Positions 25,585 through 29,373 of a DNA stretch of 34,248 nt are shown in pieces. This stretch comes from Burkholderiales bacterium (GTDB lineage Bacteria; Pseudomonadota; Gammaproteobacteria; Burkholderiales; JAEUOS01), in assembly GCA_947473125.1 (NCBI GenBank), contig CANJDH010000049.1:1-34248 (forward strand). Direction: 5' to 3'. A program made the position numbers and the translations under genes. A model generated the notes under the pieces. It was not told where the DNA came from. It ran no database searches and saw only the letters and a list, made by a program, of their open reading frames with translations. Every line of letters begins with the position of its first letter. Within the stretch, counting starts at the first letter, position 1.

Positions 25585-25637
25585 CGCAAAAGCAGGGGGC
25601 GAAACGCGCTATTCTACCGAAGCACCCTTTTGCGATG
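25582..25637. promoter_or_regulatory. 11-bp inverted repeat in the divergent gnd / dehydrogenase intergenic region
   Basis: CATCGCAAAAG (25582-25592) and CTTTTGCGATG (25627-25637) are perfect reverse complements, 34 bp apart. The left arm includes the gnd start codon; the right arm ends in an ATG in frame with the divergent dehydrogenase. It could be a shared operator or a duplicated leader. Confidence 0.4.
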
Positions 25638-25688
25638 CCGTTGCCTTCCGAACCTTCCGGCTTTTTGCCCTCCCCTTCCCAACACATC

Positions 25689-26579
25689 ATGACCACTTCG
25701 ATCGGCCTCATCGGCCCCGGCGCCATGGGCCTCGGCATCACCCACGCCTTGCTGCGCGGCGGCTTTCGCGTCCTGGTGCGCGACATCAACCCGGAACGCA
25801 ACCGCCTCGCCAGCGAGGCCGGCGCAGTCGTGTGCGAGCACGCCGCCGCGATCGCGCGGGAAGCCGAGATCGTCATCACGGTGGTGGTGAGCGCAGCGCA
25901 AACACGCGAGGTGTGCTTCGCCAGCAACGGCCTGGTCGAGACCATGGCGCCCGGCGGCGTGGTGCTGATGTGCTCGACCATCGCCCCCGAAGACACCGCG
26001 GCCATCGCGGTCGACCTGGCCGCACGCGGCATCAATATGATCGACGCGCCGATCTCCGGCGGGCCGGCACGCGCGGCGGCCGGCACCATGAGCATGATGC
26101 TGGCCGGCGGCGATGGCGCGCTCGAAAAATGCGCCGCCGTGCTCGCCACCATGAGCGACAAGCGCTTCGTCATCAGCCCGACACCGGGTGACGGCTCGAA
26201 GATGAAACTGGTCAACAACCTGATGGCCGGCATCAATGTCGCCGCCGGTGCCGAGGCGTTTTCGCTGGGCATCAAGGCCGGCCTCGACCCGAAGAAGATT
26301 TACGAGGTGGTGATGGCAAGCTCAGGCCAGAGCTGGATGGTGGCCGACCGCATGAAGCGCATCATCGAAGGCGACCGCAGCGTCACCGCCGCCGCCGCCA
26401 TCATCACCAAGGACGTGGGCCTGGCTCTCGACATGGCGCAGACACTCAAATTTCCGCTGCCGATCGGCGGCCAGGCGCACCAGGTGTTCCTGAGCACGCT
26501 GGCGCTCGGCCACGCGCTTGAAGACGACAACGCGGTGATCCGCTATTACCAGGCCCTGACGGGGATCCCCCTGCCGTGA
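25689..26579 (+). CDS. NAD(P)-dependent beta-hydroxyacid dehydrogenase (3-hydroxyisobutyrate / L-threonate dehydrogenase family)
   Basis: A 296-residue oxidoreductase. It has Rossmann motif IGPGAMGLG at the N-terminus, MCSTIAPEDTAAIA, the substrate-binding DAPISGGPARAAAGTMSMM, and the catalytic Lys in GDGSKMKLVNNLMAG. The family includes 3-hydroxyisobutyrate, tartronate-semialdehyde (GarR) and L-threonate (LtnD) dehydrogenases. The fit looks closest to the LtnD/GarR side but the substrate cannot be fixed from sequence. ATG 25689 is chosen because it begins the conserved strand; an in-frame ATG at 25635 would add an unrelated Pro/Ser-rich lead. It is divergent from gnd. A MITE lies 68 bp after its stop. 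Confidence 0.87.
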   Translation: MTTSIGLIGPGAMGLGITHALLRGGFRVLVRDINPERNRLASEAGAVVCEHAAAIAREAEIVITVVVSAAQTREVCFASNGLVETMAPGGVVLMCSTIAPEDTAAIAVDLAARGINMIDAPISGGPARAAAGTMSMMLAGGDGALEKCAAVLATMSDKRFVISPTPGDGSKMKLVNNLMAGINVAAGAEAFSLGIKAGLDPKKIYEVVMASSGQSWMVADRMKRIIEGDRSVTAAAAIITKDVGLALDMAQTLKFPLPIGGQAHQVFLSTLALGHALEDDNAVIRYYQALTGIPLP

Positions 26580-26647
26580 CGATGCGTGGTGGAAGCGGCA
26601 TGCAGCCCTTGATCGATTGCCGCTCGTGCTTGTTGTCAATACGCTAA

Positions 26648-26757
26648 GGAAAAGCTGAATAAGTCCCTGATCTGCGGGCTACCGCACGACAGTATTGAAC
26701 GAAATCAGGGTGTTGCAAGAGCGGTGTTCCTTCCCTGCGGACTTATTCAGCCCTTCC
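26648..26757. mobile_element. 110-bp MITE with IS5-like terminal inverted repeats (copy A)
   Basis: The ends are GGAAAAGCTGAATAAGTCC and, inverted, GGAAGGGCTGAATAAGTCC (17 of 19 identical). Both are flanked by CTAA (26644-26647 and 26758-26761), a 4-bp target duplication fitting the YTAR rule of IS5-group elements, whose ends also start GGAAGG. There is no coding capacity. The interior matches copy B at 27647-27754 (AAGTCCCTG, AATCA, TTGCAA blocks). Confidence 0.82.
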
Positions 26758-26838
26758 CTAATTTTGACCCAGTGACCCGGTGACCTTGGCGACCCTGAGG
26801 GCCGCCACGCGGCATGCCGCGGCGCCGCGCCAAAACCT

Positions 26839-27639
26839 TCAGCGCCCGGCCAGCAGCATATTGGCCAGTTCAGCGAATCCTGCGCCGCCGTCCGAGGGCG
26901 TGACGTACGACGGCGCTACCGGCAGGAGCGCATCGACGGCGTCCCGCACATTGGCGACGCCGACCGACAGCGGGAAAAATTCGAACATGGCCGCATCATT
27001 GGCCGAATCGCCAATGAACAGCCACTGGTCGCGCGTGGCATCGAGGTCTTCGCCCCATAGCTCCTTGACCATCAGCCTGGCCATGACCAGCTTGTCGTAG
27101 TCGCCAAAGTAGGCGTTGATGTGGATGGAGCTTTTTTTCGTGGTCATGCCGCGCCGCTTCAACAGCGCCACGATGTGGTCGTGCAAATCGCTTGGCAGCG
27201 GCGTGCCCTTGACGTTGAACAACTCGATCGCCAGGTCGAGCTCGCGATAGCTGTGGTCCGACGACAATCTGACGCCGGGCAATTCGGACAGCAGCGCCTC
27301 GCGCGCCGCCTTCATCATCTGGCGCCGGCTGCGTTTTTCTTCTTCGTCGAACCAGAAGCGCTTTTCCAGTTTGTCGGTAGCCGGGTCCATGTGAAAGTAG
27401 AACGCGCCGCCCTCGCCGATCACCGCATCCACACCCCAGGCGCGCGCCATGTGGTCGCACCAGCCGGCCGGCCCGCCGGTGACCGGCACCACGCGCAAAC
27501 CCTTGTCGATCAGGGCCTGCAGGGCGCCGTATGCCTGCGCCGAGAGGTGCCCGCCGCTGGTGAGGGTATCGTCCACATCGGTGAACACGCCTTTGACACG
27601 GCGCAATTGGGCGGCAGGGATGTCACTGATCGGTTTCAT
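26839..27639 (-). CDS. HAD-superfamily phosphatase (class IIB, Cof-like)
   Basis: A cytosolic phosphohydrolase of 266 residues. The catalytic DVDDTLT motif (residues 21-27; Asp nucleophile and acid/base Asp), the motif-II Thr in VPVTGGPAGW, a Lys in YFGDYDKLVMARLM, and GDSANDAAMF (Mg-binding) are all present. The long cap between about 90 and 190 places it in subfamily IIB, which acts on small sugar or cofactor phosphates. The exact substrate is unknown. The gene is bracketed by two MITE copies (26648-26757 and 27647-27754), the second ending 7 bp before its ATG. The element therefore forms its whole upstream region and probably carries or replaces its promoter. Confidence 0.87.
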   Translation of the reverse strand: MKPISDIPAAQLRRVKGVFTDVDDTLTSGGHLSAQAYGALQALIDKGLRVVPVTGGPAGWCDHMARAWGVDAVIGEGGAFYFHMDPATDKLEKRFWFDEEEKRSRRQMMKAAREALLSELPGVRLSSDHSYRELDLAIELFNVKGTPLPSDLHDHIVALLKRRGMTTKKSSIHINAYFGDYDKLVMARLMVKELWGEDLDATRDQWLFIGDSANDAAMFEFFPLSVGVANVRDAVDALLPVAPSYVTPSDGGAGFAELANMLLAGR

Positions 27640-27646
27640 GGCTTGG

Positions 27647-27754
27647 GGTTCCGCTGATCAAGTCCCTGGCTCTCGGACTCGCCGGCGAAGTGATAAACGG
27701 AATCAACAGCTTGCAAAGGCGACTTTGGCATTTTCGGACTGGATCAGCGATTCC
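27647..27754. mobile_element. 108-bp MITE with IS5-like terminal inverted repeats (copy B)
   Basis: The ends are GGTTCCGCTGATCAAGTCC and, inverted, GGAATCGCTGATCCAGTCC (15 of 19). The interior aligns with copy A in the same orientation. The right flank TTAG (CTAA on the other strand) fits the same YTAR target and contains the glpD stop codon; the left flank TTGG is one base off a perfect duplication. It appears to have inserted exactly at the end of glpD. Confidence 0.72.
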
Positions 27755-29305
27755 TTAGGTGAGGTATGCCGACACGCGCGCTTGTTGCTGCTGATTCATG
27801 AAAAGTCCGCACTTGCTGCGGCGCATGAGCACCGCAGCCGCGGCGCGCGCGGCACAGACCCTGTCATTTTGCACCCATTCGGTTGCCACCATGTGATCCA
27901 CTTCGGACGCATACAGGCCCGCGCCAAAGTGCTCTCCCAAATCTTCTAGTCGTTGTGCGCCATCTAGCCAGCCCCGCGCCAGGGTGCCGTGTCGTTTGGC
28001 AATGCCCAGCAGATGCGGCGGCGGCACGAAAGGATAAGCGCCTTTGAGTTCGGCCACAAGTGTTTCAAGCCCGCCGCTGAAATCTCCCCCGGGCAGGGGC
28101 TCTCGCGCCGTCCACGGCGCGCCCATCGCCGGGAAGTGCGGCGCCAGTTTCGCCAGGGCATGCTCGGCCAGCTTGCGGTAGGTGGTGAGTTTGCCGCCGA
28201 ACACGCTGAGCAGCGGCGCGCCGGCATCGGCATCGAGTTTGAGCACGTAGTCGCGCGTTATCGCCGACGCGTTGGCCTGGCCATCGTCGTACAGGGGCCG
28301 CACGCCGCTGTAGCTCCAGACCACCTGCGCGGGGGTCACCGGCTGCTGCAGGTATTCGCTGGCGATCGCGCACAGGTAGGCGGTTTCCGCAGCCGAGATC
28401 GCCGGCTCGTCCCAGGCTTCGACCGCAATGTCGGTGGTGCCGATCAGGGTGTACTGCTCATGGAACGGGATCACGAAGACGATGCGCTTGTCGCGGTTTT
28501 GCAGCAGGTAGGCGTGTTCGCCTGCATGCACGCGCGGCACGACGATGTGGCTGCCCTTGACATGGCGCACGCGCTCGCGTGACGGTTTCAGGCCTTTCAC
28601 GCCGCCCTGCACGCGCATCACCCAGGGGCCTGCAGCGTTGACCATGGCGCGAGCACGGTGCTCGATCTGCTCCCCGGTTGGCACATCCTGCAAGGTCACG
28701 TGCCAGGTGGCGTCCATCACGCGCGCACTGACAAACCGCGTATGCGGCGACACGACGGCGCTACGGTCGGCCGCACCACGGGCGTTGAGAATCGTCAGGC
28801 GCGCGTCGTCGGCGCGCGCATCGTAGTAGCTGAACCCGTTGGTGTAGGCCGATTTCAGGCCGACACCCTTTGAAGACCCTTGCAGCACAAGGCTTTTCGA
28901 GGCAGGCACTGATTTGGCCCCGCCGAGAATGTCGTACAGATAAAGGCCGGCACGAATCATCCAGCGCGGCCGCAAGTGCGGCTCGTGCGGCACGATGAAT
29001 TCAAGCGGCTGGATCAAATGCGGTGCCGCCTTAAGCAGCACCTCGCGCTCGGCGAGCGATTCGGCGACCAGGCGGAATTCGTAATGCTCAAGATAACGCA
29101 GGCCGCCGTGGATCAGCTTGCTGCTCCACTGGCTGGTAGCCGAGGCCAGGTCGTCCTGCTCGACCAGCAGCACCGACAAGCCGCGCCCGGCGGCATCGCG
29201 CGCGATGCCGCAGCCGTTGATGCCGCCGCCGATGACCAGAAGGTCGAACGGGGAGGCGGGCCCGTTGCTGCCCTGGGTAGCTGTGGATGAACCGGCCGAA
29301 ACCAT
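27755..29305 (-). CDS. glpD: Glycerol-3-phosphate dehydrogenase (FAD, respiratory)
   Basis: A peripheral membrane flavoprotein of 516 residues that oxidises sn-glycerol-3-phosphate to DHAP and passes electrons to quinone. It has the FAD-binding VIGGGINGCGIARDAAGRGL, SSKLIHGGLRYLEHYEFRLV, IGTTDIAVEAWDEP, YSGVRPLYDDG and the GGKLTTYRKLAEHAL signature. ATG 29305 is preferred over a TTG eight codons upstream. The C-terminal helix is odd: where relatives carry a DVLWRRxKxGL segment soon after an EW pair, this protein has about eight extra, Ala-rich residues (CAARAAAAVLMRRSKCGL). Its TAA stop coincides with the MITE target site. It is divergent from dsbD. Confidence 0.94.
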   Translation of the reverse strand: MVSAGSSTATQGSNGPASPFDLLVIGGGINGCGIARDAAGRGLSVLLVEQDDLASATSQWSSKLIHGGLRYLEHYEFRLVAESLAEREVLLKAAPHLIQPLEFIVPHEPHLRPRWMIRAGLYLYDILGGAKSVPASKSLVLQGSSKGVGLKSAYTNGFSYYDARADDARLTILNARGAADRSAVVSPHTRFVSARVMDATWHVTLQDVPTGEQIEHRARAMVNAAGPWVMRVQGGVKGLKPSRERVRHVKGSHIVVPRVHAGEHAYLLQNRDKRIVFVIPFHEQYTLIGTTDIAVEAWDEPAISAAETAYLCAIASEYLQQPVTPAQVVWSYSGVRPLYDDGQANASAITRDYVLKLDADAGAPLLSVFGGKLTTYRKLAEHALAKLAPHFPAMGAPWTAREPLPGGDFSGGLETLVAELKGAYPFVPPPHLLGIAKRHGTLARGWLDGAQRLEDLGEHFGAGLYASEVDHMVATEWVQNDRVCAARAAAAVLMRRSKCGLFMNQQQQARVSAYLT

Positions 29306-29373
29306 ATTGTCATTATCCCAAGGAACCAAGCCCTGCGCGCCGCCTCCAACCGAAGGTTCATAATTCGCCTTCC

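Follow-up and report, generated by a model that had tools for sequence, protein, structure and literature searches.

ERIC, BIME/REP and Correia-type repeats are short, hairpin-forming, intergenic sequences that often lie within transcribed units, and ERIC and BIME repeats are transcribed spacers between genes. The miniature inverted-repeat elements (MITEs) described here resemble them as short intergenic hairpins, whereas the ends of those repeats and the enzymes that mobilise them are different. An Rfam scan of positions 26500–27900 gave no match at E ≤ 1. For IS5, the target is given as Py-T-A-Pu, with CTAG the commonest (PMC5493358). IS5-derived MITEs are described from archaea, where a table lists four of 140–252 bp that are likewise short and non-autonomous, with inverted ends and assigned IS5-family partners (PMC3852290). 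By contrast with the family described here, the archaeal MITEs, as tabulated there, come from other hosts, are longer, and have direct repeats of 0 or 3 bp; the present elements are ~110 bp long, have 4-bp YTAR duplications, and fall, within one genome, into several diverged subfamilies that share an interior. Neither this family nor MITEs at stop codons are described among the matches listed in a literature search that covered titles, abstract openings and few subscription journals. The two elements add one more case to an established class and do not make up a mobile gene cassette. What is new here is its siting: at 14 of the 22 copies found, the stop codon of a neighbouring gene (e.g. glpD, recG, recN, iscS or boxC) lies inside the target duplication.

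The window, meaning the whole stretch of 34,248 nucleotides analysed, is contig C49 of G000, a draft genome whose 209 contigs total 4,877,126 bases. Copy A (110 bp, 26648..26757, plus strand) belongs to a young subfamily, A, with eight places in G000, and is flanked by identical CTAA duplications on the plus strand at 26644..26647 and 26758..26761. Copy B (108 bp, 27647..27754, plus strand) belongs to an older subfamily, B, with relatives in contigs C31, C122, C40 and C53; its right duplication is TTAG (27755..27758, plus strand) and its left one has changed to TTGG (27643..27646, plus strand). The CTAA/TTAG targets noted from the sequence are corrected to CTAA/CTAA for copy A and TTGG/TTAG for copy B. 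Between the two copies, which are 889 bp apart, lies a gene for a HAD-IIB phosphatase of 266 amino acids (26839..27639, minus strand; TIGR01484, 60.4 bits against a cut-off of 41.8), an old neighbour of the glycerol-3-phosphate dehydrogenase gene glpD (27755..29329, minus strand; NF008899, 672 bits against a cut-off of 360, profile positions 5–496 of 508). Copy A is flanked by the 3′ ends of the HAD gene and of a convergent L-threonate dehydrogenase-like gene (25635..26579, plus strand; NF043037, 310.6 bits, below the cut-off of 350). Read on the minus strand, the TTA at positions 27755–27757, within the right duplication of copy B, forms the stop codon of glpD, and 112 of the 115 nt between glpD and HAD consist of copy B plus one duplication. 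Copy B does lie at the glpD stop codon, as had been noted from the sequence; it is the spacer between two same-strand genes, and so not a free-standing upstream region of HAD. In the flanks fetched for HAD homologues, a GlpD-like match was present at six of 28 loci from several phyla, of which one is only 24% identical and another (L041) is apparently on the same contig as that of the relative G001; this gives a hint that the HAD protein may act near glycerol phosphate.

Of 19 positions in the inverted arms, 17 agree in copy A and 15 in copy B, and matches to a covariance model bore out the claim that the copies have the same orientation. Identity between A and B is 59% in an 11-copy alignment (A1). 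With the outer 20 bp removed, the interiors of A and B nevertheless align with z = 4.0, upholding the claim of common interior blocks, and each aligns with the interior of a further subfamily, C, which was found through loose end-motif matches in contigs C61 and C143 (A–C, z = 8.6; B–C, z = 6.6); none of 300 shuffles equalled the score for any of the three pairs. These comparisons indicate that A and B are one family, in different subfamilies.

A BLAST search of G000 placed copy A at eight sites, five of which, including A itself, are 99–100% identical, with contigs C101 and C44 carrying copies that are 100% identical over the query. It is these five of the eight family A copies that have the same 4-bp duplication on both sides (CTAA, TTAG or CTAG); the two sides are unlike in the other three and in all 14 copies of subfamilies B, C and D. 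The copy B query matched four further places at E ≤ 2.5e-8 (C31, C122, C40 and, partially, C53), a count that leaves out three weaker matches of 24–26 bp, and in alignment A1 copy B shares 77–85% identity with those in C31, C122 and C40. A covariance model of subfamilies A, B and C (R1; 117 positions, 20 pairs) was searched against five genomes of the taxonomic family, with 150 of 1488 candidates scored. In G000, 33 matches at E ≤ 1 corresponded to at least 22 places, 11 of which were matched on both strands; 11 of the 22 sat in the model alignment and so match by construction. At 19 of the 22 places, the match had E ≤ 2.4e-6. The other three, in C5 (E 3.6e-4), C149 (E 0.008) and at C9:9712 (E 0.0195), are less certain members, and we group them with the copy in C120, itself a stronger match, as a diverged set, D; this grouping is less certain for the weak three. 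Thus, the BLAST and covariance-model copies bear out the view of the sequence-only reading that A and B belong to a MITE family that has IS5-like ends and is spread across the genome: the elements are short, mostly ~110 bp, numerous, and bounded by inverted ends with no room for a transposase gene, their target duplication has the fixed length of 4 bp where family A retains it, and undecayed copies sit at CTAA, TTAG or CTAG, which are Py-T-A-Pu targets of the IS5 type. Two B copies are longer than the rest: the one in C122 (L011, 1501–1623) has 14 extra interior bases that nearly repeat their surroundings, and the one in C53 (L158, 1501–1668) has about 50 extra interior bases.

We found no complete partner IS in the draft assembly of G000 with the PF01609, PF13586 and NF033581 profiles. 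PF01609 and PF13586 gave no match, and NF033581 (IS5_4) detected a single remnant near the start of contig C85 (150.9 bits, profile positions 1–144 of 285), whose transposase frame departs from the family after about 160–175 residues. A search of the genome for an IS5-family transposase, proposed from the sequence, thus returned a truncated transposase of IS5_4 type and no complete element with matching ends; because the assembly is a draft, the missing partner is weak evidence of absence. Contig C85 starts inside an IS5_4-like end (L136, 1–578), its first 13 bases being ACTGAACAAGTCC, and carries the truncated transposase, an arrangement pointing to a repeated IS as the place where assembly broke off. 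The left end of C85 has no clear similarity to the MITE interiors.

Outside G000, PF01609 matches were present in nine of 23 genomes searched, and among the 30 loci listed for 33 such matches, eight hold the loose end motif beside YTAR. Similar ends occur on elements with an IS5-family transposase in two genomes: G144 carries one complete element, bounded by both ends and with TTAA to either side (L109, 542–1705), and G183 has five copies of 1158 bp, 97–99% alike over 1200 bases, with identical YTAR on both sides in four and TTAG/CTAG in one. The transposases score 318.9 (G144) and 351.9 bits (G183) against NF033581, for which the cut-off is 140. Like the MITEs, these IS5_4-type elements have ends of the form GGAA..CTGAACAAGT and variants beside YTAR duplications; unlike the MITEs, they carry a transposase of 318–329 amino acids, and their interior likeness to the MITEs is weak at best. 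These elements link such ends to IS5-family transposases, without identifying the parent of A or B. End similarity yielded no acceptable parent IS: the best of 24 comparisons, between the left end of A and the left end of the G183 element (with the G183 slice beginning three bases early), had z = 7.2 with the inverted ends and fell to 3.4 once these were removed.

Outside G000, the DNA of copy A matched none of 59 relatives at E ≤ 0.001 and nothing in plasmid and phage collections, and R1 had no match at E ≤ 1 in the family relatives G002, G003 and G004. In the fourth relative, G001, R1 matched five places (E 0.013 to 0.98) that hold elements of 107–109 bp with an unlike interior; this genome carries its own element set, with similar ends and a different interior (L138, L139, L140, L142 and L162). 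Wider model searches, with strict filters and nine candidates scored per genome, matched 20 of 369 genomes of the class at E ≤ 0.01 and 15 of 399 genomes of the order at E ≤ 1e-4, with G000 included in both counts. Nothing stands out when the interiors of seven of the 19 outside loci inspected are compared with those of A and C. At six loci in three genomes (L164, L165, L166, L181, L182 and L183, in G510, G637 and G754), similar ends with YTAR enclose the palindrome GTCATTCCGGCGAAAGCCGGAATCC and variants of it, which we take to resemble the dRS3 repeat. Five of these six loci align with the interior of B with z = 2.3–2.9 (0 to 5 of 300 shuffles as good) and the sixth with z = 0.8 (64 of 300 shuffles); we read this likeness as probably reflecting shared palindromic composition, and a distant link to B is possible. 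Genomes G389 and G081 have similar ends around another palindrome, and in G136 the ends almost touch, forming a bare-ends element of 46 bp including YTAR, with 2 bp between the modelled arms (L079, 1501–1546).

Genes around all 22 places in G000 were called with a gene finder based on codon usage. The 14 stop-codon places are in C122 (the A copy), C14, C153, C49 (copy B of the window), C31, C53, C61, C9 (position 12656), C107, C4, C120, C5, C149 and C9 (position 9712). In C4 the stop codon is TGA, so that the site, CTGA, is not YTAR, and in C149 the site lies one base off. The B copy in C122 is a fifteenth case, at the same stop codon behind the A copy. Curated full-length models, scoring above their cut-offs, show five of the 14 genes to be whole, namely those for RecG (profile to position 704 of 705), RecN (553 of 553), BoxC (548 of 548), IscS (406 of 406) and GlpD (496 of 508); the other nine have domain matches or sub-cut-off matches only, and truncation caused by the element is possible for them. 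The diverged member at the boxC stop codon lies between boxC and boxB (L200, 3701–3813; C120), and that at the iscS stop codon, which is the weak match in C149, lies between iscS and iscU (L202, 3232–3348). Seven places lack such a stop codon: copy A of the window and the copies in C101, C44, C67, C40, C124 and C143. In C124 a predicted gene runs 19 bp into the element before ending, and in C143 the element contains a predicted start.

Most of this siting has a plain explanation in target choice. Elements end on stop codons because the target contains TAA or TAG and many non-coding sites of this kind are stop codons, and the stop codon is kept in place because the target duplication repeats it. 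As background, we counted YTAR sites in 234,248 bases (ten 20-kb pieces plus the window): of 196 sites, 103 are coding, 36 are on stop codons and 57 are elsewhere, such that stop codons make up 36 of the 93 sites outside coding sequence in this G+C-rich genome (18 of 28 for CTAG, 13 of 34 for CTAA/TTAG and 5 of 31 for TTAA). Measured against every YTAR site, 14 of 22 copies on stop codons is a strong excess (p = 3.6e-6), but selection has probably removed insertions that hit genes. With the 93 non-coding sites as the reference, the excess has p = 0.016, or p = 0.009 (Fisher 0.018) for 14 of 21 separate sites, and p = 0.07 for the 11 of the 19 strongest copies that are on stop codons. Raising the gene-finder threshold lowers the background share of stop codons itself from 0.40 to 0.29. 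Counting as CTAG copies those with CTAG on at least one side and leaving out C153, which has TTAA on the stop side, all nine are on stop codons (binomial p = 0.019, Fisher p = 0.038), or eight of eight without the nested copy (binomial 0.029, Fisher 0.052). By contrast, CTAA/TTAG copies are on stop codons at four of nine places, with no excess (p = 0.47). The elements at stop codons are oriented 10 to 4, which is not significant (p = 0.18). We conclude that target choice and selection explain most of the siting, and that a modest, uncertain excess is left.

The sequence-only reading had offered two accounts of A and B, a composite mobile unit or two independent insertions, and had named relatives with HAD in the same place without either element as the sign of the latter. 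Two family members in the same orientation around a single gene are what a unit in which two MITEs moved the phosphatase gene together would look like. We detected HAD in three of the four family relatives (G001, G003 and G004), the fourth, G002, being 84% complete and without a match, and in all three glpD directly precedes HAD on the same strand, too close for an element to fit between them: in G003 and G004 an ATGA combines the stop of glpD with the start of HAD, and in G001 the genes are 16 nt apart. The DsbD-like gene is also in place in G003 and G004, as in the window (DsbD–glpD–HAD). Because relatives have glpD–HAD without an element, the elements did not bring HAD in, and copy B split an old glpD–HAD junction. 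Moreover, A and B share only 59% identity and differ in age, HAD occurs once in G000, and the outer duplications around A–HAD–B differ (CTAA and TTAG), each element pairing with its own duplication, in the case of B with one base changed. A composite unit is thus extremely unlikely, and that option is refuted by the relatives, in favour of independent insertion. For copy A there is no orthologous empty site, because the sequence after HAD differs in the relatives, none of which is of the same genus. In C122, a family A copy is sited precisely at the CTAG to the left of a B copy, which implies that A moved after B, and later activity of A agrees with its near-identical copies. Overall, we consider it very probable that A and B both belong to one old family of non-autonomous miniature elements of the IS5 type and that they inserted independently.

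Independent insertion leaves two further readings of what the elements might do, that copy B supplies the HAD promoter and that the elements are retained as transcribed spacers, like ERIC or BIME repeats, that uncouple neighbouring genes and tune their expression. Copy B fills nearly all of the interval from the glpD stop to the HAD start, which speaks for a promoter; however, a consensus scan of 26500–27900 gave no sigma-70-like site, which is weak evidence against a promoter in B, and the abutting or overlapping of glpD and HAD in relatives suggests transcription from glpD, making this reading very unlikely. A spacer role has the surroundings of the copies in its favour. Nine of the 14 stop-codon copies have a same-strand gene next behind the element, within 70 bp in six: 3 bp for glpD–HAD, 9 bp for boxC–boxB, 20 bp for iscS–iscU, 5 bp for a LivF-like gene followed by an acyl-CoA ligase-like gene, 20 bp for a TctC receptor followed by a dehydrogenase, and 68 bp for a MarR-type regulator followed by an aldolase-like gene. 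If these pairs are operons, polymerase must cross the element, and a strong terminator is unlikely; a terminator scan of 26500–27900 found three terminator-like sites, none of them inside A or B. The RNA fold of A is more stable than those of shuffled sequences on both strands (z = −4.7 and −6.7), and the frequency of stop codons in the duplications, above all among CTAG copies, would fit the same role. That frequency is mostly accounted for by target choice, though, with no excess among CTAA/TTAG copies, a p-value that weakens to 0.07 for the strongest copies and no significant orientation bias, and the fold of B, taken from position 27648, is only slightly more stable than those of shuffles (z = −2.1 and −1.6). 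An effect of the elements on the expression of neighbouring genes is possible, whereas their retention as spacers of the ERIC or BIME kind is unlikely. It is quite unlikely that selection has filtered the 110-bp elements of this lineage into a perhaps useful set at natural stop codons, in which target duplication preserves a stop and a transcribed hairpin uncouples the genes of an operon; if this were true, insertion would rewire operons such as glpD–HAD, boxC–boxB and iscS–iscU without breaking a protein.

In the independent-insertion reading that we favour, the elements would have been excised at their ends and reinserted at YTAR by an IS5_4-type DDE transposase working in trans. Copy B would have landed on the stop codon of glpD, and the four duplicated target bases would have kept a stop codon at the end of the gene, so that glpD would have stayed intact apart, perhaps, from a few residues at the C-terminus. 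GlpD in the window is 4 to 8 residues shorter at that end than in the three relatives, and its stop codon may be derived rather than ancestral, although, judging by the duplication, CTAA preceded the arrival of B. The insertion would have put a hairpin-forming spacer of 112 bp between glpD and HAD, and copy A would have landed later, between two convergent gene ends, without visible harm. These results settle that the HAD gene is not mobile cargo. They also show by example how YTAR targeting brings an element onto stop codons in a G+C-rich genome; such elements are to be expected between neighbouring genes, and should not be taken for promoters by default.
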